From NCBI GenBank assembly GCA_028868855.1, contig JAGWTR010000003.1, positions 124,001-188,000 on the forward strand: a DNA stretch of 64,000 nucleotides, in the 5' to 3' direction. Numbering within the stretch: the first letter of the stretch is position 1; the number at the start of each line of letters is the position of its first letter. Below are positions 4,198 through 32,197 of the stretch, one piece after another. This DNA is from Burkholderiales bacterium. Lineage in GTDB: Bacteria; Pseudomonadota; Gammaproteobacteria; Burkholderiales; Burkholderiaceae_C. The position numbers and the translations under genes were made by a program. Below the pieces are notes generated by a model. The model searched no databases. It saw only the letters and a program-made list of their open reading frames with translations, and was not told the origin of the DNA.

Positions 4198-4668
4198 TCA
4201 CCGCCGAGGATCAATGGGTCTGAAGCTAAAGTAGTGATCCTCGGAATAAAAACAAGTTTCAGGAGATTGCACAACGTAGCCTCCACAAACAATGCGCCGA
4301 GCGCCGCGGTCACGTGAGCCCACCGTGGGGACGGTATATTCACGGTAAAACCCGCGTTGTCTGCGAGGCAAAGCATGCTCCCGGTTGCCAAAAACGACGC
4401 CGTCCTTGGCGTATCGAAAAGGACCACCAGCCAGAATGCGCCGATGAATGTCTTGGGCTTGTGGCGGCAACTGCGACAAGCCCACCGAAGTACCTGAGTC
4501 CGCTTGATCGAGGGTCGACACCGCAGGTCTGGACCGGGCCCAGGCCGAAGAAACACCCGCGTCGCTCAAGGCGGCTCCGAGGTTGACCCCAGTGGCCATC
4601 AGTGTTGATGCCAGCACAGTAGTGCAAAGGGCGACCCATGAAGCCTTCAAACGTGCGCGATGCTTCAA
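4198..4668 (-). CDS. secreted guanyl-specific ribonuclease (RNase Sa/barnase superfamily)
   Basis: A 156-residue precursor with an N-terminal signal-like segment (KHRARLKASWVALCTTVLAST) and a C-terminal RNase domain from about residue 64. 'LPPQAQD', 'GPFRYAKDGVVFGNRE', 'GFYREYTVPT', 'RDRGARRIVCGG' and 'YSEDHYFSF' align motif by motif with streptomycete RNase Sa. Predicted catalytic residues are Glu110, Arg125 and His145, all present. Cys128 and Cys139 could form a disulfide. The start is a TTG at 4668; an in-frame stop four codons upstream rules out a longer protein, and a start at the internal ATG (residue 24) would delete the signal segment. The enzyme cleaves RNA 3' of guanosine, presumably outside the cell. 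The barstar gene follows. Base composition is visibly less GC-rich than its neighbours, consistent with acquisition. Confidence 0.87.
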   Translation of the reverse strand: MKHRARLKASWVALCTTVLASTLMATGVNLGAALSDAGVSSAWARSRPAVSTLDQADSGTSVGLSQLPPQAQDIHRRILAGGPFRYAKDGVVFGNREHALPRRQRGFYREYTVPTVGSRDRGARRIVCGGYVVQSPETCFYSEDHYFSFRPIDPRR

Positions 4669-4725
4669 CTGCTTTGCTCAACTCTCGTCAAAGGCGTAAT
4701 GCTACTGAATACGGGCCAAAAGCTC

Positions 4726-4763
4726 AAGGCCCCCGCCGCTGAAAACCAGCAGACAGGGGCCTT
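4726..4763 (-). terminator. probable intrinsic terminator upstream of the RNase gene
   Basis: Outer arms AAGGCCCC (4726-4733) and GGGGCCTT (4756-4763) pair, with an inner GCTG/CAGC stem around a GTTTT loop on the minus strand. The 3' side on the minus strand is GAGCTTTT. It lies between the malic enzyme stop and the RNase start, so it likely ends the maeB transcript. Confidence 0.5.
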
Positions 4764-4817
4764 TGCGTGAGGGGTTGACAGTTTGTGCTATATGCGGGTG
4801 CTGATCGGCGCCGCTGT

Positions 4818-7112
<2,295 letters not shown>

Positions 7113-21692: not shown

Positions 21693-24509
21693 TTACACCA
21701 CCACGTTGACCAGGCGGCCAGGCACCACGATGATCTTCTTGGGTGGTTTGCCTTCGCTGAATTTGGCCACGTCCTCGCTGGCCAGGGCGGCGGCCTCAAT
21801 GGCGGTCTTGTCGGCCGTGGGGCTGACCTTGATCGAGCCGCGCAGCTTGCCGTTGACCTGCAGCATCAGCTCGATCTCGTCTTGCACCAAGGCTTCTTCG
21901 ACCACGGTGGGCCAGGCGGCGTCCAGCAGGTCGCCCATCTTGTCCGGCGCGGCATAGCCCAGGTCTTGCCACAGCACATGCGTGAGGTGCGGGCAGGCCG
22001 GGTACAGGCCACGCAGCAGCACGCTGTAGCCTTCGCGCAGCACGGCCATGTCCTGTGCCGAGGTGCCTTTGTGGGCTTCGAGCGCATTGAGCAGCTTCAT
22101 GGCGCCCGAGGCCACGGTGTTGTACTGCATGCGTTCGTAGTCGTAGCTGATCTGCTTGAGGATGACGTAGACCTCACGGCGCAAGGCCTTGGCGTCTGCG
22201 CTCAGCTCGGCTTGCACCACGGCGCCCGCGCTCTTCAGCGCCTCGGCGTTCTTCGCGCCAAAGGCCCACACGCGCTTGACGAAGCGGTGCGCGCCTTCCA
22301 CGCCGGCGTCGTTCCACTCCAGCGTCTGCTCAGGGGGCGAGGCGAACATCACGAACAGGCGAGCGGTGTCGGCGCCCATTTCTTCGATCAGGGCTTGCGG
22401 GTCCACACCGTTGTTCTTGGACTTGGACATGGTGGTCAACTCATAGTCGAGCACGGTGCCGTCGGCCTTGAGCTTGCCGCCGATGATCTGGCCATGCGCG
22501 TTGCGCTCGACGTCGACCTCGTTTTCCCAGTAGTAGTTCTTGCCCGCGCCTTCGGGCTTGTGCGAGAACGCGCCCTTGAGCACCATGCCCTGGGTGAGCA
22601 GCTTCTTGAAGGGCTCGTCGATCTTGACCAGGCCCAGGTCGCGCATGACCTTGGTCCAAAAGCGCGCATACAGCAGGTGCAGGATGGCGTGTTCGATGCC
22701 ACCGATGTACTGGTCCATGCCGCGGTTGCCCGGTGCATTGGCCGCGCCCATCCAGTAGCTGGTGCGCTCGTCGACCATCTGGTTGGCGTCGGAGGCGCAG
22801 GCTGAGCCGTCGCGTTGCGACTGCGTGCAGGTATAGCGCATGAAGTACCAGCTCGAATCCACGAAGGTGTCCATCGTGTCGGTTTCGCGCTGGGCAGGCT
22901 TGCCGCACTTGGGGCAGCCGACGTTGAGGAAGTCGGGGCGAGATTTGAGCGGGTTGCCGGAACCATCGGGCACCACGTCTTCAGGCAGGACCACGGGCAG
23001 GTCCTTCTCGGGCACGGGCACGGCGCCGCAGGTGTCGCAGTGGATGATGGGGATGGGGGTGCCCCAGTAACGCTGGCGGCTGATGCCCCAGTCGCGCAGG
23101 CGCCAGGTGGTCTTCTTCTCGCCCACGCCCTTGGCGATGAGGATCTCGGCGACCTTGTTGACGGCGTCCTTGTGGCTCAGGCCATCGAGTTCACCAGAGT
23201 TGACGCACACGCTCTTTTGCTTGTCGCCGTACCACTCTTGCCAGGCGGTGGTCGAGAAGCTCAGCGCCCTCAACTCTTGCGTCACCTGGGTCAACTGCGT
23301 GACAACGGCGACGTCGCCTTGCGTGACCAGTGCTTGGGCTGTCGCTTCGAGCTTGATCAAGTCCGTGCTGGTGATCACCTGCTTGATGGCGATGCCGTAC
23401 TTCTTCGCAAACGCGAAGTCGCGCTCATCGTGCGCGGGCACGCCCATCACGGCGCCATCGCCATACGACATCAGCACGTAGTTGCCAACCCAGACCTCGA
23501 CCTGCTCGCCGGTGATCGGGTGGGTGACGAACAGGCCCGTGGGCTCGCCCTTCTTCTCTTGTGTGGCCAGCTCGGCTTCGGTGGTGCCGCCGGTCTTGCA
23601 TTCTTCGATGAAGGCTTGCAGTTTGGCATTACCAGCCGCGGCATGCACGGCCAGGGGGTGCTCCGGCGCCACGGCGCAGAAGGTCACGCCCATGATGGTG
23701 TCAGCGCGGGTGGTGAAGACCCACAGCTGGCCCTGGTTGATCAGTTGGCCATCAGCACCGGTGATGTCATGCGCAAACGCAAAGCGCACACCTTCGGACT
23801 TGCCGATCCAGTTTTCCTGCATCAGGCGCACGCGCTCGGGCCAGCCGCTCAGGTAGTTCGGGTCTTCGGGGTTGGCGACCGCGCTCAGCAGCTCGTCGGC
23901 GTATTTGGTGATGTTCAGGTAGTAGCCGGGGATCTCGCGCTTTTCAACCGGGGCGCCCGAGCGCCAGCCCTTGCCGTCGATCACCTGCTCGTTGGCCAGC
24001 ACGGTTTGGTCGACCGGGTCCCAGTTCACGGTCTGGGTGCGGCGTTCGCACACACCGGCTTCCAGCATCTTGATGAACAGCCACTGGTTCCACTTGTAGT
24101 AGCTGGGCTGACAGGTGGCGATCTCGCGCGACCAGTCGATCGCCAGGCCCATCGCCTTCATCTGCTTCTTCATGTAGGCGATGTTGTCGTACGTCCAGGC
24201 GGCGGGTGGCACCTTGTTCTTCAAGGCGGCGTTTTCAGCCGGCAGGCCGAAGGCGTCCCAGCCCATGGGCATCAGCACGTTGTGACCGTTCATGCGCAGG
24301 TAGCGCGTGAGCATGTCGTTGATCGTGTAGTTGCGCACGTGGCCCATGTGCAGCTTGCCCGAGGGGTAGGGCAGCATGGAGCAGGCGTAGAAGGCCTTTT
24401 TGTCCTTGCTTTCGGTGACGCGGTAGGCGTCGCGGTCATTCCAGTGCTGCTGGGCACGGGCCTCGACGGCGCGTGGGTCGTAGGTCAGGGGTTCAGATGG
24501 AGCGCTCAT
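21693..24509 (-). CDS. leuS: leucyl-tRNA synthetase
   Basis: A 938-residue class I synthetase that charges tRNA-Leu. '[17 protein letters not shown]' contains the HIGH-equivalent HMGH; '[12 protein letters not shown]' is KMSKS; the editing CP1 domain has '[21 protein letters not shown]'. The protein is longer than the usual 860-880 residues because of about 35 extra residues in the region encoded at 23264-23371 (Thr/Gln/Val-rich). The ATG at 24509 ([12 protein letters not shown]) was preferred over an in-frame GTG 12 nt upstream; neither has a good Shine-Dalgarno. First gene of leuS-lptE-holA. Confidence 0.96.
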
Positions 24510-24620
24510 GGAGGGGGTCACCGCAAAGACAAGATCAGGCTGGCAGCCACGGTGGCTCCAGCCTGTGAAGGGGATGCTAATCCTGCGATTATAGAAAGGT
24601 GGCTTTGCCTGGGCGTTCGC

Positions 24621-25226
24621 TCAGATCAAGCCTTCCGCCTTGAGGGCGGCTTGAACCGCCGGGCGGGCCGCGACGCGAGCCTGAAAGGCCAGCAGCGAGG
24701 GCCAGGGGGCCAGGTCCAGCTGGACGAACGGGGCCCAGTTCAAGATGACGAAGAGGTAGGCGTCGGCCACGCTGAAGACCTCGCCGAGCAGGTAGGGCTG
24801 GCCGGCCAGTCGCTCGTTGGTGTAGGACAGGCGTCGCTCTAGATGGGCACGGGCCGTGGCCTTCATGTCGGCGGACGCCGTCGGGTTGAAGAAGGGGCTG
24901 AAGTTCTTGTGGATCTCGGTGCTGATGAACGCCAGCCAGCTCTGCAACTGGTAGCGCGCCACGGTGCCGTTGGCCGGGGCCAGTTGCTTGGCCGGCACCA
25001 GGTCGGCCAGATACTGCACGATGGCCGGGCCTTCGGTCAGCAACTCGCCACTGTCGAGCAGCAAGGCCGGCACATATCCCTTGGGGTTGAGGTCGGCGTA
25101 GTTGGCGCCACTGGCGGTGAGCTTGGTCTTGAGGTCGACCGCTTCGGTCGCATAGGTCAGGCCGGTCTCTTCCAGCACGATGTGCGGGGACAGCGAGCAG
25201 GCGCCAGGGGAGTAGTAGAGCTTCAT
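24621..25226 (-). CDS. beta-class glutathione S-transferase
   Basis: A 201-residue cytosolic GST. 'MKLYYSPGACSLSPHIVLEETGL' is the bacterial beta-class start, with Cys10 as the catalytic or mixed-disulfide residue; 'YVPALLLDSGELLTEGPAIVQYLADLVP' contains the glutathione-binding 'TEGPAIVQYL'. The C-terminal helical domain follows ('YLLGEVFSVADAYLFVILNW'). Its ATG overlaps the stop of the upstream peptidase/ABC transporter gene by 4 nt (ATGA), so it is translationally coupled to the peptide-export operon. Its role there is unknown: detoxification, thiol chemistry on the exported product, or self-protection are all possible. Confidence 0.93.
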   Translation of the reverse strand: MKLYYSPGACSLSPHIVLEETGLTYATEAVDLKTKLTASGANYADLNPKGYVPALLLDSGELLTEGPAIVQYLADLVPAKQLAPANGTVARYQLQSWLAFISTEIHKNFSPFFNPTASADMKATARAHLERRLSYTNERLAGQPYLLGEVFSVADAYLFVILNWAPFVQLDLAPWPSLLAFQARVAARPAVQAALKAEGLI

Positions 25227-27397
25227 GAGGGTTGTCCTGGCATAGAGGTTTCGGGGGCGTTCGTGACGGGGGCATCCGGCTCCTGCGCCGGGACCAGCTT
25301 GCCGCCCTTGAGCGCGTAGACGACATCGCCTTCGCTCAAATTGTGTTCGCGGTGCGTGATGATGAAGCGCCCGCAGCCCAGGGCGTTGATCGACTGCTGC
25401 ACATGCGCCTCGGTGGCAAAGTCCAGGTTGCTGGTGTACTCGTCCAACAGCAAAAAGCGCGGTTTTTTGTAGAGCGCGCGTGCTAGTAGGATGCGTTGTT
25501 TCTGACCGCCTGACAAGGTGGCGCCCATGCCGCCGACCAGGGTTTGGTAGCCCATGGGCATGTGCAGGATGTCCAGGTGCATGCAGGCCAGTTGCGCGGC
25601 GGCCTCGACCTTCTCGGGCGTGGCTTCCACATCGTTCATGGCGATGTTGTCGTAGATCGAGCACGAGAACAATTGATCATCCTGAAACACCGTGCCCAGC
25701 ACGGAACGGAAGGCCTCCGAACCCAGGCGTTGGATGGCCACGCCATTGAGCAGCACTTCGCCCGACTCCGGGATCACCTGGCCCGACAGCACTTTCAGCA
25801 AAGTGGACTTGCCGCAGCCCGAGGGCCCCACGATGGCCACGGCCTGTCCGGTGCGCACGCTCAGGCTGAGGTCGTCCAGCACGGGTTCTTCACCGATGGC
25901 ATAGCGGAAGGTCACGTTGCGCACCTCCAGCGTCATCGGCGCATCGCTCTGCAGGGAGGCGGCCGCGTGGGCGGGCGAGATGGCCTCGGGCTCGGACAGC
26001 ACGATGTCGGCCAGGCGTTCACCTTGCAGCTTGAGCAGGCGCAGATTGATGATGCGCTCCAGCAGTTCGGCCGTGCGCTGCAGGAACTGGCCCTTGTAGG
26101 CCAGGAAGGCCACCAGCATGCCGATCGAGAACTTGTCGGCAATGATCAGGTTGGCCGCCAGGTACAGCACCAGCGCTTGTTCCACCGAGCTGATCGTGCC
26201 ATTGATGCCCTGGTGCAGCATGCTGATGCGCTCTTGCTTGACCTGGGCATTGACCATGGCCGCTTGCTGGTTCATCCAGCCGCCGACGCGCCAGTTGGGT
26301 TTGGCAAAGAACTTGATGGCCGAGACGCCGCGCAGGGTTTCGAGCAAGAAGGTGCTGGCATTGGCCTCGCGCACGATCAGTTCTTCAGCCGCCTGGCGAT
26401 AGGGCTTGAACACGGCAAAGCGCACGAGCGCCGACAGCAGCGCCACCACCACCACAATGCCCGCCAGCATCGGGCTGTACATGAACATCAGGGCCAGCGT
26501 GATCAGGCTGACGAGGCCATCGAGTACCGCTTCGACCAGGTGGTTGGTGATGGTGTCCTGGATGTGGCCGACCGAGGCAAAGCGCGACATCACATCGCCT
26601 GTGTGGCGCTTGTCGAAGTAGGACAGTGGCAACTTCAGCATGTAGCGAAACACGTTCGTGCTTGAGGCGATCTTCCAGGACAGGCTGGCGCCCAGCATGA
26701 TCCAGCCACGCAGCATGCGCGTGCCGATCGACATGAAGCTCAGCAAGAAAATGCCGATGGCCAGCACCGCCAGCAGGGGCGCATCGCGGGTCACGATCAC
26801 GTCGTCGATGATCCACTGGCTGAGCATGGGCATGAGGATGCCGAACAGCTCCAGCACGACCGACAGCACGGCCATCTGCGCAAAGGCGCGCCACAGGCCC
26901 GACTGGCCTGTGAACAGCACGCGGATGTCAAAGCTGGTCTTGTCCGTCGTTTTTTGAAAACCCTGGGTCGGCGACAACTCCAGCCCCACGCCCGTGAAAT
27001 GCGGGCTGGCTTCGGCCATGGTCAGGGTGCGCTCGCCCACCGCCGGGTCCAGGATGGTGATCTGGCGGGCATCGGCCTTGATCAGCACCACGAAGTGGTT
27101 CAGGTCCCAGTGCAGCATGCAGGGCGTTTGCAACTGGGGCAGCTCGTCGAGCTCCAGTCGCAGCGGCCGGGTCGCCAGGCCCATCTGTTCGGCGATTTCC
27201 ATCAGGCGGGCCAGCGTGGCCCCGCGCGAGGACATCTCAAAGCGCCGGCGCAAGGTCAGCAGATCGGTTTCATGGCCGCGTGCGCTGGCGATCATGGCCA
27301 GGCAGGCCAGGCCGCATTCGGCGGCTTCGGACTGCAGGATCATCGGCACGCGCTTGCGCGGCCACAGTGACAGCAGGTTGACGCTAGATTGGGACAT
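25223..27397 (-). CDS. peptidase C39-containing ABC transporter (PCAT) of a type I secretion system
   Basis: A 724-residue exporter that cleaves double-glycine leaders and transports the peptide. N-terminal C39 peptidase: Gln22, Cys28 ('SEAAECGLACLAMI'), His101 ('NHFVVLIK') and Asp117 ('ILDPAVG'), all present, so it should be active, unlike degenerate RTX-type C39-like domains. A six-helix ABC transmembrane domain spans about 160-440. The ATPase has Walker A 'GPSGCGKSTL', signature 'LSGGQKQRILLARAL', Walker B 'RFLLLDEYTSNLD' and H-loop 'ITHREHN'. The ATG at 27397 gives MSQSSVN. It is flanked by hlyD-like and GST genes in the same operon. Confidence 0.95.
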   Translation of the reverse strand: MSQSSVNLLSLWPRKRVPMILQSEAAECGLACLAMIASARGHETDLLTLRRRFEMSSRGATLARLMEIAEQMGLATRPLRLELDELPQLQTPCMLHWDLNHFVVLIKADARQITILDPAVGERTLTMAEASPHFTGVGLELSPTQGFQKTTDKTSFDIRVLFTGQSGLWRAFAQMAVLSVVLELFGILMPMLSQWIIDDVIVTRDAPLLAVLAIGIFLLSFMSIGTRMLRGWIMLGASLSWKIASSTNVFRYMLKLPLSYFDKRHTGDVMSRFASVGHIQDTITNHLVEAVLDGLVSLITLALMFMYSPMLAGIVVVVALLSALVRFAVFKPYRQAAEELIVREANASTFLLETLRGVSAIKFFAKPNWRVGGWMNQQAAMVNAQVKQERISMLHQGINGTISSVEQALVLYLAANLIIADKFSIGMLVAFLAYKGQFLQRTAELLERIINLRLLKLQGERLADIVLSEPEAISPAHAAASLQSDAPMTLEVRNVTFRYAIGEEPVLDDLSLSVRTGQAVAIVGPSGCGKSTLLKVLSGQVIPESGEVLLNGVAIQRLGSEAFRSVLGTVFQDDQLFSCSIYDNIAMNDVEATPEKVEAAAQLACMHLDILHMPMGYQTLVGGMGATLSGGQKQRILLARALYKKPRFLLLDEYTSNLDFATEAHVQQSINALGCGRFIITHREHNLSEGDVVYALKGGKLVPAQEPDAPVTNAPETSMPGQPS

Positions 27398-27422
27398 GAG
27401 GCTTGGGGTCAGGCGAAATCGT

Positions 27423-28679
27423 TCAAAGCTTGCCGCTGAAGGCAAACACGGGGTCGAGCATCCAGCGGATCAGGCGACGGCGGTCGAGTTCGACATCGGC
27501 CGTGAGCGTGTGGCCTGGATGCAGCGCCACCTGGGCGCCGTAGGCCTTCACCTGCGACGAATCCAGCGTGACATGCACCAGGAAGACGGCGCGGCGGTCC
27601 TGGTTGTTGTTGCCCTGGCCGCCGGCCACCTGGATGTCGGTTTGCGAGACGCTGCGCACCGTGCCGTGGTACTGGCCAAAGCGTTGATACGGGAAGGCGT
27701 CATAGCTCACGCGCACGTTCTGCCCGGCCTTGATGAAGCCGATGGCGGTGCTGGGCACATAGAGCACCGCTTCCATGGGCGAGCGGCTGGGCACGATGGA
27801 GGCGAGGGTGGCCCCTGCTGGCGTGACCTGGCCGGCTGAGGCGAGCAAGCCCGACACGATGCCATCGACCGGGGCTTTGAGCAAGGTCACGCGCGCGCCG
27901 CGCCGCTGCACGACCTCTTGCTGCAGGGTCAAGAGGTCACGGTCCAGTCCAGCGCGGGTCACGCGGTGTTGGGCGCTGAGGCGGGTCTGCTCGTCGCGGG
28001 CCAGGGCCAGGTCGGCCTGGGCCGCGCTGCGTTGGCGTTGCAAGGTCTGCAGGCGCGCGGTTTGCTCCAGCAGCGCCTGATGCTGCTGTTCGTATTGCAC
28101 TTCGGAGACGATGTGCTCGGCCAGCAAGGGCTGCAACTGGTCCAGCAGCTTGCGGGCCGAGCCGATCTGTTGCGTCTGCAGTCGAATCTCTTCGGACAGG
28201 GTGGTCGCATCGCGTTGCGCTTGCGCCATGCGCTGCGCCAGTGCGGCCAGCGACGCCTCGTTGGCCTGCGCCTGCCCTTCGGCCTGGTGGACCACCTGAT
28301 CGCGCTGGCTTTGCAGATTGCTTTCAATCAGGGCCTGGGTGTTGCCCGCGTCGGTGTAGCGCTCGCTGCTGATCTCGGCGAGCACCTCGCCGGCCTTGAC
28401 GGCCTGGCCTTCGGTGACCATCACCCGCTTGATCAGGCCGGCCTCCAGGGGCGTGACCATGGCCACGCCGTCGCGGGCCTGCACCACCCCTTGCACGCGC
28501 TCCTTCTTGGTGTAGGAGCCGAAGATCAGCACCAGCAGCACGAGGGTGGCGATGGCCGCAAAGAACAGGGTCAGGCGAGACGCACCCACCGGGCGGATGT
28601 GCAGGGCCGGGCCGGCGCTGGTGTCAGCGCGGGCCGCCAGCACCTCTTGTCGAAACAGCGATTGAGGGTGATTGCTCAT
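27423..28679 (-). CDS. HlyD-family periplasmic adaptor (membrane fusion protein)
   Basis: A 418-residue adaptor linking the inner-membrane ABC exporter to TolC. One N-terminal membrane helix (LTLFFAAIATLVLLVLIFGSY), a lipoyl-like half ('GVVQARDGVAMVTPLEAGLIKRVMVTEGQAVKAGEVLAEI'), a long coiled-coil hairpin at about 125-260, and the second half 'VTLLKAPVDGIVSGLLASAGQVTPAGATLASIVP'. This organisation is that of CvaA/HlyD partners of peptide exporters. The start overlaps the TolC-like gene stop by 4 nt, and the ABC gene follows after 25 nt. Confidence 0.93.
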   Translation of the reverse strand: MSNHPQSLFRQEVLAARADTSAGPALHIRPVGASRLTLFFAAIATLVLLVLIFGSYTKKERVQGVVQARDGVAMVTPLEAGLIKRVMVTEGQAVKAGEVLAEISSERYTDAGNTQALIESNLQSQRDQVVHQAEGQAQANEASLAALAQRMAQAQRDATTLSEEIRLQTQQIGSARKLLDQLQPLLAEHIVSEVQYEQQHQALLEQTARLQTLQRQRSAAQADLALARDEQTRLSAQHRVTRAGLDRDLLTLQQEVVQRRGARVTLLKAPVDGIVSGLLASAGQVTPAGATLASIVPSRSPMEAVLYVPSTAIGFIKAGQNVRVSYDAFPYQRFGQYHGTVRSVSQTDIQVAGGQGNNNQDRRAVFLVHVTLDSSQVKAYGAQVALHPGHTLTADVELDRRRLIRWMLDPVFAFSGKL

Positions 28680-30127
28680 GGGGCGGACTCGGGCATGGGC
28701 TCGGGGTCGAATTGGGCGCTCAGGGGCGCCACGTGTTGGGCGTCCAGCTGGTCGAGCAGGGCCAGGATGTTGACGTGGGCGCTCAAGGCGGTCACGCGCG
28801 CCGCCACCAGGCTCTGGCGGGCGGTGTGGATCTGCTGCTGGGCGTTCAGGAGGTCCAGGTTGGTGCGCAGGCCCGCCACAAAGGCTTTGTTCACCGCCTC
28901 GTAGGTGGCGCTGGCGGTTTGCTCGACATCTTGTTGCGCCGCGATGATGACCTGTGCTTGTGTCAGGCTTTGATAGGCGTCGCGCAGGCCGCTCTGGGCC
29001 GCCGCCTCGGCGTCATCGTGGCCCGCCTGTGCGCGGGTGAGCAGGGCTGCGGCTTCTTGCACGCGCCCCTGCTGGTAGCCGCCGGTGAACAAGGGCCAGT
29101 TGAGTTGCACGCCAATGGCCTTGGTCGAGACGTCCTGCTGATCGGTGATGCCTTCAAAGCGCTGCGTCTGGTGGGTTCGGCTGGCCGTCGCCGAGGCGTC
29201 CAGCGTGGGCTGCCAGTATTCGGCATCGCGGGCCGAGGTGGTGGCGCGGGCGGCCGCCAGTCTGGCGCGGGCGTCCTGTAGTTGCGGGTTGTCCTGGGCC
29301 GCCTGTTGCAAGGCCTCGTCCAGGCTGGGCAGCAGATCTGGCGTGCCGATGCTGGTTTGGCTCAGTCCTGCCGGGATGCGCACGCCCTGGCCGCTCAGGC
29401 GCTCGATGGTCAGCCTTTGGCTGGTGACGCGCATGCCCAGTTCGCGGATCGAGGCGCGGGTCTGGTCCATGCGGGTGCGTGTTTCAAGCTGGTCCAGCAT
29501 GGTGCCCAAGCCGGCCTGCAGGCGCCGGTCGTTGATGTGCAGTTGCTTTTGCAGCAGACTCAGTTGGGCCTGCGCCAGGCGCCGTTGTTCGGCGGCTTCT
29601 GCGGCGGCTAGATAGGCCAGGCTCAACTCTCGGGCCACCAGGACGCGCTGGCTGCGTGCTTGCCAGCGGGCCAGGTCGGTCAGGGCGTTTTGGGCCTGCG
29701 CGTTGGCGCGGTCTGCTGCGCGCCACAGGGGCAGGGTGGTGGTCAGGGAGATGGCCGTGGCCGGGGTGCTGCTGCTGGTTCCGTTGTAGACCTGTTGCTG
29801 GCGGCTGCTGCCAGCGTTGAGGTCCACGCGCGGCATCCAAGCGCTGGACCACACTTGCTTGTGCTGCGCTTGCGCGGCCTGCACGTTGGCATCGGCCATG
29901 CGGTTGGTGGCCGCTTGCTGCGCGGCCACCTCCAGCAGGTGTGACCAGGGGGTGGCGGTGTCGTTGCCTTGCGGCGGCGCGGCGCTGGGCGCGCTGAGGC
30001 TGAGGTCCCAGCGCAGGCCGGGCTCAGGGGGCGACGTGGCGTGGGTCGGCGATCCGGTCAGTCCGGCGAGGCTGGTGATGGCCAACAGACTGAGCGTGGA
30101 GCGTGCCCGTTGGGCGAGAGGGAGCAT
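28676..30127 (-). CDS. TolC-family outer-membrane efflux protein
   Basis: A 483-residue channel protein (491 if the ATG at 30151 is used). It has a signal peptide and then the TolC pattern of two repeated helical hairpins: 'LLEVAAQQAATNRMADANVQAAQAQHKQVWSSAWMPRVDLNAGSS', 'LARWQARSQRVLVARELSLAYLAAAEAAEQRRLAQAQL', and 'QLNWPLFTGGYQQGRVQEA' before the second half. It is the first gene after the terminator of the GG-peptide gene and is coupled to the HlyD gene by a 4-nt overlap. I chose 30127 because the ATG at 30151 lies inside the terminator's T-rich tail. Confidence 0.9.
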   Translation of the reverse strand: MLPLAQRARSTLSLLAITSLAGLTGSPTHATSPPEPGLRWDLSLSAPSAAPPQGNDTATPWSHLLEVAAQQAATNRMADANVQAAQAQHKQVWSSAWMPRVDLNAGSSRQQQVYNGTSSSTPATAISLTTTLPLWRAADRANAQAQNALTDLARWQARSQRVLVARELSLAYLAAAEAAEQRRLAQAQLSLLQKQLHINDRRLQAGLGTMLDQLETRTRMDQTRASIRELGMRVTSQRLTIERLSGQGVRIPAGLSQTSIGTPDLLPSLDEALQQAAQDNPQLQDARARLAAARATTSARDAEYWQPTLDASATASRTHQTQRFEGITDQQDVSTKAIGVQLNWPLFTGGYQQGRVQEAAALLTRAQAGHDDAEAAAQSGLRDAYQSLTQAQVIIAAQQDVEQTASATYEAVNKAFVAGLRTNLDLLNAQQQIHTARQSLVAARVTALSAHVNILALLDQLDAQHVAPLSAQFDPEPMPESAP

Positions 30128-30160
30128 GAGTACAGCGGTTGAGCAGCGCATAAAGCAAGA

Positions 30161-30180
30161 AAGGCCGCTTGCGCGGCCTT
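30161..30180 (-). terminator. intrinsic terminator/attenuator after the GG-peptide gene
   Basis: Perfect 8-bp stem AAGGCCGC/GCGGCCTT with a 4-nt loop, followed on the minus strand by TTTCTTGCTTT. It stands between the peptide gene and the exporter genes on the same strand. Partial read-through would give abundant peptide and less exporter, a common bacteriocin arrangement. Confidence 0.75.
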
Positions 30181-30188
30181 GCTATCTT

Positions 30189-30210
30189 GGCACAGCCTGC
30201 AGGCTGTGCC
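30189..30210. repeat. perfect 22-bp palindrome downstream of the GG-peptide gene
   Basis: GGCACAGCCTG and its exact reverse complement are joined without a spacer, 27 nt beyond the peptide stop and just before the terminator. It may be an RNA-stabilising hairpin or a protein-binding dyad. Nothing decides between these. Confidence 0.6.
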
Positions 30211-30236
30211 GATCAACGCTGTCAGGTGTTGAACCT

Positions 30237-30449
30237 TTAAGCGGCGACCTTGGCCTTGATGCTGGCCAGCAGGTCGGTGAGCAGCTTCTTGATGTAGGGC
30301 GAAGCCAGGGCGATGGCCAGCGTGATGATCTTGGTGTCGGTCGATGCGAAGATCGAGACGTTGGGCTTGCCGTTCAAGGCGTTCAGGATGTCCAGGGCAT
30401 TCACGCCACCGGTGACAGCTGCGATTTCGGTTTGATTCAATGTACGCAT
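30237..30449 (-). CDS. double-glycine leader peptide (candidate class II microcin/bacteriocin)
   Basis: A 70-residue precursor. The leader MRTLNQTEIAAVTGG carries every position of the GG-leader consensus: Leu at -12, Glu at -8, Ile at -7, Val at -4, Gly-Gly at -2/-1. Cleavage after Gly15 would release a 55-residue core starting VNALDILNAL, with six Lys and three Asp (net about +3), no Cys, and hydrophobic amphipathic stretches (ITLAIALASPYIKKLLTDLLASI) expected to be helical. A clear GGAG Shine-Dalgarno sits 6 nt before the ATG at 30449. It lies immediately upstream of tolC, hlyD and an active-looking C39 ABC exporter on the same strand. Activity is inferred, not shown. No immunity gene is evident. 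Confidence 0.8.
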   Translation of the reverse strand: MRTLNQTEIAAVTGGVNALDILNALNGKPNVSIFASTDTKIITLAIALASPYIKKLLTDLLASIKAKVAA

Positions 30450-30667
30450 GAGAACTCCAGTTCGGTGGTATTGGGTGTGCTGCGAATCGCGCAACGCTTG
30501 ATGTTTGTTGGGCTGACGAGTCCAATGTAAACGGCCGTCACCCGCTGTTTCTTTCGGGGTTTCCCGCGAAAAATACCGATTCAAGGGGATCTTCTAGGCG
30601 GGATGACCCTGAGTGGCCTGGTGATGGTCAGGGTTAACAAGCAATGGGTGCGGGGCAGGCGTGAGAA
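30450..30667 (-). other. upstream region of the GG-peptide gene
   Basis: A 218-nt spacer between glpK and the peptide gene. Apart from the GGAG ribosome-binding site I see no convincing -35/-10 pair or dyad; a TTGAAT followed by an A/T-rich TATTTTT is the only promoter-like piece. Control of the peptide is therefore open. Confidence 0.4.
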
Positions 30668-32197
30668 TCAACGGCTGCAGGTTTGACGCACGGCGTGTTC
30701 CCACTGGCCCATCAGTTCGTCGGCGCGTTCGCGTGACAAGGTGGGGTAGAAGGTGCGCTCGGCCTGCCACAGGCGGGCAATGGTGGGGGTGTCGGCATAC
30801 ACCCCCGTGGCCAGGCCAGCCAGGTAGGCCGCCCCCAGGGCCGTGGTTTCGATCACCTGGGGCCGCACCACCGGGATGCCCAGCAGATCGGCCTGGAACT
30901 GCATCAGCAGGTTGTTCACGCAGGCGCCCCCGTCAACCCTTAATTCGCTGACCGGGCGGCCGCCTGCAGCGACGGCGTCGCGGCTCATGGCCTGCAGCAG
31001 GGCCGCGCTTTGAAACGCGATGGATTCGAGTGCCGCGCGCGCAATGTGGGCGACGGTGCTGCCCCGGGTCAGGCCCACGATGGCGCCGCGTGCCTCGCTG
31101 TTCCAGTAGGGCGCGCCCAGTCCGGTGAAGGCGGGCACGAACATCACTCCACCGGCATCGGGCACGCTCTCGGCCAGAGGTTGTACGTCGCTGGCGGCGC
31201 GGATCGCGTGCAGGCCATCGCGCAACCACTGCACCACCGCCCCACCCATGAAGACGCTGCCTTCCAGGGCATAAGCGGCTTGCGCGCCCACCTGCGCCGC
31301 CGCCGTGGTCAGCAGGCCATTGGCCGAAGGCTGGGCGTGGCCGCCCGTGTGCATCAACATGAAGCAGCCGGTGCCGTAGGTGTTCTTGGCCAGGCCGGCT
31401 TCAAAACCTGCCTGACCGAACAGGGCGGCCTGCTGGTCGCCCGCGATGCCGCCAATGGGCAATGTTGGCAGGCCCGGCAAGGTGTCGGCCTGACTGCCCC
31501 AGATGCCCCGTTCGGCCATGCCAAAGGGGTGGCTGGAGGGGTGCACGGCGGGCAGCACGCTGCGCGGGATGTCCATCAAGGCCAGCAGATCGTCGTCCCA
31601 CTGCTGGGTGTGCAGGTTGAACAGCAGGGTGCGCGAGGCATTGCTGACATCGGTGGCGTGCACCTGCCCGCCCGTCAGCTTCCACAGCAGCCAGCTGTCC
31701 ATGGTGCCAAAGGCCAGTTCGCCGCGCTCAGCCGCTGCGCGCGCGCCATCGACGTTGTCCAGCAACCATTTCAGTTTGGTGCCGGAAAAATAGGGGTCGA
31801 TCACCAGGCCGGTCTTGCGGCGGAGGGTCTCGCTCAGGCCCTGCTCGCGCCACTGCGCGCACAGGGGTTCGGTGCGGCGGTCCTGCCAGACAATGGCGTG
31901 GGCCACTGGTTCGCCCGTGTCGCGGCGCCACAGCACGGTGGTCTCGCGCTGGTTGGTGATGCCGATGGCGCGCACCTCGGCCAGCGAATGGCCCAGGGCG
32001 CGCGCCTGTTGCAAGGCCGACACGGCGGTGTCGCGCTGGCTGGTCCACAGCTCCAGGGGGTCGTGCTCGACCCAGCCGGGGCGGGGGTAGTGCTGTCGAA
32101 TCTCACGCTGAGCCTGGGCGATGAGACGGCCCTGTTCGTCAAAGACGATGCTGCGCGAGCTGGAGGTGCCCTGGTCGAGCGCGAGGATCAAAGCCAT
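30668..32197 (-). CDS. glpK: glycerol kinase
   Basis: A 509-residue FGGY kinase that phosphorylates glycerol to glycerol-3-phosphate. '[19 protein letters not shown]' at the N-terminus, '[19 protein letters not shown]', '[14 protein letters not shown]', '[26 protein letters not shown]' and '[19 protein letters not shown]' are the standard signatures. It is downstream of the DeoR-type regulator gene by 15 nt. No glpF permease gene is in the window, so entry may be through a distant porter or by diffusion. Confidence 0.97.

Follow-up and report, generated by a model that had tools for sequence, protein, structure and literature searches.

A double-glycine peptide with an exchangeable core beside a genus-level C39 type I exporter in Burkholderiales

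The 64,000-nucleotide stretch of DNA analysed here (the window; positions 124,001 to 188,000 of contig JAGWTR010000003.1 from a Burkholderiales bacterium, assembly GCA_028868855.1) contains a small gene for a double-glycine (GG) leader peptide, followed on the same strand by genes for a TolC-family channel, an HlyD-family adaptor, and an ATP-binding cassette (ABC) transporter fused to a peptidase C39 domain (Table 1). From this arrangement, the peptide core is very likely secreted by the neighbouring type I exporter. A first-pass annotation had proposed a microcin or bacteriocin with a dedicated C39 type I exporter. The exporter is borne out by its domains, its motifs, and its co-occurrence with the leader; the microcin or bacteriocin identity is not, as no plausible immunity open reading frame (ORF) lies beside the window peptide, none clearly recurs with a core type in 36 loci, and a nearly frozen core family (type C) uses the same exporter.

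The precursor consists of a 15-residue leader (MRTLNQTEIAAVTGG) and a 55-residue core (VNALDILNALNGKPNVSIFASTDTKIITLAIALASPYIKKLLTDLLASIKAKVAA), with GGAG ahead of the ATG, and a GG-leader precursor of this kind is one mark of the class II microcins. Every leader position named by the first-pass annotation is present (Leu -12, Glu -8, Ile -7, Val -4, and Gly-Gly), and the core is cysteine-free and lysine-rich as described (0 Cys, 6 Lys, 3 acidic residues; predicted 5.72 kDa, isoelectric point 9.6). Its characterisation as helix-prone, examined as amphipathicity alone, found no support, with 224 of 1000 shuffled versions of the core matching its maximal helical moment. Among the 23 peptides tested in this way, 0 of 1000 shuffles was reached only by a type E core (L043, 2862–3041), which, unlike the window core, has a helix-like segment of strong amphipathicity at its end. 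The reported unlikeness of the core to any named bacteriocin agrees with the searches: the window peptide matched no Pfam family and no NCBIfam model over its cut-off, its best solved-structure match had an E-value of 0.072, and Pfam and NCBIfam revealed no similarity to known microcins (the ten verified microcins were not compared directly). No plasmid-borne relatives of the peptide were found, and no modifying enzyme was recognised near its gene. A 16-position leader model, built from 19 genus leaders including that of the window, identified the window site at E = 7.7e-7 in its own genome (3.4 Mb, 99.67% complete) and no second site at E ≤ 10; a single leader site in the genome that also adjoins the exporter is more than chance.

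Together with the Pfam domains, the intact C39 motifs (QSEAAECGLAC, HWDLNHFVV, and ILDPAVG, with the catalytic Cys, His, and Asp) confirm the same-strand tolC, hlyD, and peptidase-ABC genes that had been called. The C39 domain with its Cys/His/Asp is fused to ABC membrane and ATPase domains, and both the HlyD adaptor and the TolC channel score over their Pfam cut-offs, as in PCAT-type exporters; the NCBIfam models for type I adaptors and channels remained below theirs (type_I_hlyD, 160.6 bits, cut-off 208.65; type_I_sec_TolC, 166.3 bits, cut-off 225.15). The solved ‘ABC-type bacteriocin transporter’ 4ry2, which we take to be PCAT1, matched residues 28–720 of the C39-ABC protein at E = 1.4e-80, and multidrug ABC transporters and HlyB outscored it (best, 4f4c, 4.9e-86). 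The best NCBIfam match of the exporter, TIGR03796, reached 471 bits (cut-off 853.3), less than an NHLM/NHLP assignment requires, and the 15-residue leader is presumably not of the long NHLP type. The start of hlyD overlaps the stop of tolC at 28676–28679, and conservation in relatives suggests a start for the C39-ABC protein near 27397.

Table 1. Features of the peptide and exporter locus, in window coordinates
Feature	Position	Strand	Family match or basis
GG-leader precursor, 70 aa (leader 30449-30405, core 30404-30240)	30237..30449	(-)	
Intrinsic-terminator-like hairpin between peptide gene and tolC	30161..30180	(-)	
TolC-family outer-membrane channel, 491 aa	28676..30151	(-)	Pfam OEP 1.2e-42
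HlyD-family periplasmic adaptor, 418 aa	27423..28679	(-)	Pfam HlyD_3 2.7e-18
Peptidase C39-ABC transporter, up to 740 aa	25223..27445	(-)	Pfam Peptidase_C39 9.2e-31 + ABC_membrane + ABC_tran
GST-like gene	24621..25226	(-)	Named from sequence, no family search

The source bacterium belongs to the Aquabacterium group. Twelve of the 18 loci retrieved via the exporter are labelled Aquabacterium (Sphaerotilaceae, Burkholderiales), and the exporter-bearing relatives include A. lacunae KMB7, A. soli SJQ9, and A. fontiphilum CS-6. Across a genus sample of 42 genomes (ABC threshold, E ≤ 1e-120; leader threshold, E ≤ 1.2e-4), ABC matches occurred in 26 genomes, 24 of them at ≥64% identity, the remainder being a 43%-identity paralogue (G013) and a partial gene at a contig edge (G041). 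Leader matches likewise occurred in 26 genomes, with weaker matches (up to E = 1; two in G013, one in G025) left uncounted; one leader-positive genome had no ABC match (G039), its peptide being followed by tolC and hlyD before the contig ends. Exporter parts were thereby present in all 26 leader-positive genomes, and neither leader nor exporter was detected at these thresholds in the other 16, nine of which are ≥90% complete and ≤5% contaminated (Fisher p ~6e-12, or 1e-10 with G039 as a mismatch, uncorrected for relatedness). Outside the genus, the highest ABC identity was 48% (399 genomes sampled from the family, a few of them from the genus).

The first-pass annotation had tied its proposal to conservation of leader plus core beside the exporter in relatives; this held for the leader, and the core was found in only three other genomes of the 42 (G023, G024, and G030; 42–49% core identity), with further matches at E ≥ 0.14. 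Searches with cores A and C beyond the genus returned 17 matches in 15 of 369 genomes of the class (best E = 0.004, across three stops) and four matches besides the own genome in 299 genomes of the family (best E = 0.018). These were treated as chance; a check of seven of the 21 matches revealed no GG leader in the best-scoring translated segment of any of the seven.

Twenty-five exporter loci, drawn from 24 genomes and comprising the window and L028–L051, were used to follow variation at the peptide slot. The counts leave out L028 and L049, where the slot meets a contig edge, the partial exporter L052, and the 43%-identity paralogue L053, and the outgroup exporters L054–L067 stand outside them as well, six being placed in the tree and the rest serving as context. 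A GG peptide adjoins tolC in 22 of the 25 loci (codirectional, n = 16; divergent, n = 6), two loci end at a contig edge, and one (L033) has none; the genome of the latter (G016) has a C1 peptide on another contig (L107) as its only leader match. The 22 slot peptides were grouped by eye into eight core types, with the leader kept throughout: A (n = 4; window, L029, L030, and L031), B (n = 2), C1 (n = 4), C2 (n = 7), E (n = 2), F (n = 1), G (n = 1), and H (n = 1, a locus with two tandem peptides). Core types follow the clades of a combined ABC and HlyD tree, requiring seven changes for eight states, the minimum possible, with three of the types single-member. C1 and C2 are related, with invariant I17, D18, I20, H21, E24, Y28, G29, P31, L32, and N34. 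Homology between the A and C cores was considered and rejected (hhalign probability 0.3% on very small alignments; no profile similarity).

Some genomes carry additional GG peptides unlinked to the slot. With unlinked copies counted, 18 of the 26 leader-positive genomes have a C or C-like peptide, that of G041 being the most divergent, and three genomes (G002, G004, and G008) carry such peptides unlinked beside other cores. In G004, leaders of types F and C2 pass E ≤ 1.2e-4, and others score more weakly (E = 0.01–0.56); the latter include an H-like peptide and two identical 59-residue type G peptides in tandem (L113, 4242–4421 and 4586–4765; leader E = 0.01 each). Second C1 copies at L105 and L108 lie near another HlyD-like and ABC-like pair with 27–30% identity to the window exporter. 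PEP-CTERM proteins adjoin unlinked GG peptides at L100, L105, and L107 (the last just under the cut-off); a link was rejected, as five genomes searched hold 20–65 PEP-CTERM matches each and the adjacency is plausibly chance.

Selection on the cores was estimated from small samples by simple counts of nonsynonymous and synonymous differences per site (pN and pS). The C2 cores are 91–98% identical in ten pairs (L041 and L042 against L045, L047, L048, L050, and L051), compared to 47–73% for their leaders, 32–44% for TolC, 45–55% for HlyD, and 66–73% for ABC. Their core pN/pS is 0.03 (0.00–0.12) for L045–L051, and the clear synonymous divergence (pS = 0.56) indicates constraint and not recent transfer. 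The window locus compared to L029–L031 has the opposite pattern, with 87% identity in the leader, 42–49% in the core, 63–69% in TolC, 67–70% in HlyD, and 82–83% in ABC (without L029), and a core pN/pS of 1.05 (0.67–1.74; 41 ungapped codons), such that purifying selection on the window core is not detectable against its nearest relatives. Positive selection is not claimed, because an initial excess of pN over pS across 55 gapped codons fell to this value on ungapped codons. Intermediate values were obtained for L043–L044 (0.72) and L030–L031 (0.54).

A core pN/pS of ~1 would also fit functional decay, in which relaxed constraint at the slot lets the window core drift, the exporter having been retained for another substrate, and L033, with its exporter lacking an adjoining GG peptide and the only leader match of its genome on another contig, points the same way. 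Decay is nonetheless very unlikely, as the leader, ribosome site, hairpin, and reading frame have all been retained, the motifs NGKP and SPYIK are common to the window core and its relatives, and the window genome contains no other leader.

A cognate immunity protein is listed as one of five microcin components, though perhaps not every microcin has one, and the expected protein is of 51–216 residues and encoded near the microcin (PMC9746304); the screen here took in three genes on either side. None of the three genes upstream of the window peptide (glpK-, glpR-, and glpD-like) or downstream (tolC, hlyD, and abc) is of immunity size. Six small ORFs lie within 30100–30760, one being the frame of the peptide itself with an upstream start, two antisense, and three unmatched in relatives; the transmembrane (TM)-like ORFs at the locus are antisense, leaving no plausible immunity ORF beside it. 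Separate ORF lists covered five slot loci, and another was limited to ORFs of ≥110 residues. A wider scan around 36 peptide loci, consisting of the 22 slot loci and 14 of 16 further stretches (L109 and L111 were left out), considered ORFs of 45–250 residues that contain a hydrophobic segment of 19 residues. It returned 17 candidates, none clearly recurring with a core type in these loci, and the only pair alike between loci (L045 and L050) involves an L045 ORF that contains the frame of the peptide itself.

With no dedicated immunity gene found, the peptide is most likely directed at the producer's own population or surroundings, as opposed to being a classical class II microcin. The reading given about an even chance of being correct is that of a genus-level exporter for exchangeable secreted peptides that lack dedicated immunity and act on the producer's own community, and a role directed at the producer or its community is given a slight preference over an antibacterial one. 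The readings overlap, and the confidences placed in them do not sum to one.

Several observations weigh against a community-directed role. Below threshold, type G resembles microcin V (Pfam E = 0.11) and type H resembles Bacteriocin_IIc (E = 0.1); type B likewise has a sub-threshold match to TIGR04149, an rSAM-RiPP model (E = 0.006), and the C2 leader has one to the cerein 7B family (E = 0.088). At L106 (G034), a 101-residue hydrophobic TM-like ORF (4614–4919) lies ~15 bases after an unlinked peptide (4934–5119) on the same strand, and immunity genes may be unlinked in any case. A conserved leader with a core pN/pS near 1 is also what would be expected of bacteriocins, and linkage of the peptides to a receptor, kinase, or matrix gene was not observed, although no systematic search for one was made. 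Among bioinformatic microcin candidates of other genera, 12 of 23 are reported to have inhibited E. coli (PMC13174018).

Several of these points fit an antibacterial class II microcin-like peptide that kills relatives, with the producer protected by target variation, by an unlinked gene, or by the exporter itself: the near-neutral window core under its conserved leader, the weak similarities of types G and H, and the TM-like ORF directly after the L106 peptide. The combination of a conserved leader with exchangeable, small, and mostly cationic cores fits as well, as does the full C39-HlyD-TolC set, which microcins also use. Such a peptide is one of the two serious options, with the probabilities leaning against it, since the window peptide lacks a plausible immunity ORF nearby, exporter parts occur in 26 of the 42 genus genomes and are not sporadic, and the frozen C core uses the same exporter.

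The opposite selection on C and window-type cores, along with the presence of C or C-like peptides in most leader-positive genomes and unlinked beside other cores, would also be accommodated by one exporter with two classes of cargo, C being a signal or house peptide and the lineage-specific A, B, and E–H being weapons or type labels, of which the window genome kept the variable class only. This division is rather doubtful: no receptor was seen linked to C, and C appears dispensable, because 8 of the 26 leader-positive genomes lack it by the searches made (type A, G000, G023, G024, and G030; types G and H, G012 and G020; type E, G009 and G022). Less probable still, and on the whole unlikely, is that a single C39 exporter for the near-frozen C family (IDxIHxxEWNxYGxPL) and for exchangeable, lineage-specific, immunity-free peptides constitutes a form of kin or community signalling in Gram-negative bacteria beyond the known autoinducer types.

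Under the favoured community-directed reading, the 15-residue leader would dock on the C39 domain and be cut after Gly-Gly, and the 55-residue core, probably unmodified, would pass to the outside through ABC, HlyD, and TolC. Exporter and leader would form a fixed delivery platform across the genus, the core is swapped from lineage to lineage and in some genomes present in further copies at other sites, and the released peptide would most likely act on the producer's own population or surroundings as a signal, surface, or matrix peptide. The hairpin after the peptide gene would probably yield much peptide transcript and little exporter transcript. At this locus, 0 of 50 shuffles scored as high as this hairpin, while the 7-kb region overall has no excess of terminator-like sites (4 compared to 4.8 in shuffles). 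Such hairpins follow 18 of the 22 slot peptide genes, and for 17 of them ≤4 of 50 mononucleotide shuffles scored as high; none was found for L036, L037, L043, and L045, although for the last a palindrome containing a T run can be read. The region 24000–31000 yielded no sigma-70-like site (0.8 expected).

The GST-like gene at the end of the locus shares an ATGA overlap between its ATG and the ABC stop, an arrangement resembling translational coupling, and its inclusion explains why the span given in the first-pass annotation starts at 24621. It is probably outside the system, since at L012 the GST-like gene begins ~1.1 kb past the ABC gene. The neighbour names glpK, glpR, glpD, leuS, and GST are putative, having been read from sequence without a family-library check.

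In Gram-negative bacteria, GG peptides with C39 exporters are usually taken for microcins; the failure to recognise an immunity gene here, the stronger conservation of the core than of its leader and exporter in one lineage, and the exchange of cargo in others suggest that some such loci may do otherwise. Among the matches listed for literature on Aquabacterium bacteriocins and on GG, microcin, or C39 systems, no paper title concerned an Aquabacterium locus of this kind.

Of the systems available for comparison, the pneumococcal ComAB/BlpAB-type shared exporters resemble the present one in that a single C39 exporter serves both conserved and variable GG peptides, but they are linked to kinases and immunity genes, none of which were seen here. 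Class II microcins with export of the MccV (CvaA/CvaB/TolC) type share the GG/GA leader, the C39 ABC transporter with Cys/His/Asp, the HlyD-type adaptor, and TolC, following the definition in PMC9746304. The present system differs in several respects: an immunity gene was not found next to the peptide, tolC is part of the locus, the core is unrelated to known microcins, the exporter extends across a genus, and one core family is frozen. Both that source and PMC11494933 concern Enterobacterales. EbfG1-4 and PteB of Synechococcus elongatus, likened here by description without sequence comparison, belong to another phylum and are described as several GG-motif small proteins with one C39 peptidase-transporter and a role in biofilms (PMC4997328, PMC9981879). 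The gonococcal Naps are likewise GG-motif, bacteriocin-like cationic peptides, described in PMC11798529 as without detectable antimicrobial activity, but are paired there with a C39 peptidase, a FapF-like channel, and a LagC-like gene on a horizontally acquired island, whereas the type I exporter of the window system is complete and distributed across the genus. Along with HetC, a C39/GG system with another or proposed other role (PMC10986499), EbfG/PteB and the Naps provide precedents for a reading of the window peptide other than as a bacteriocin.

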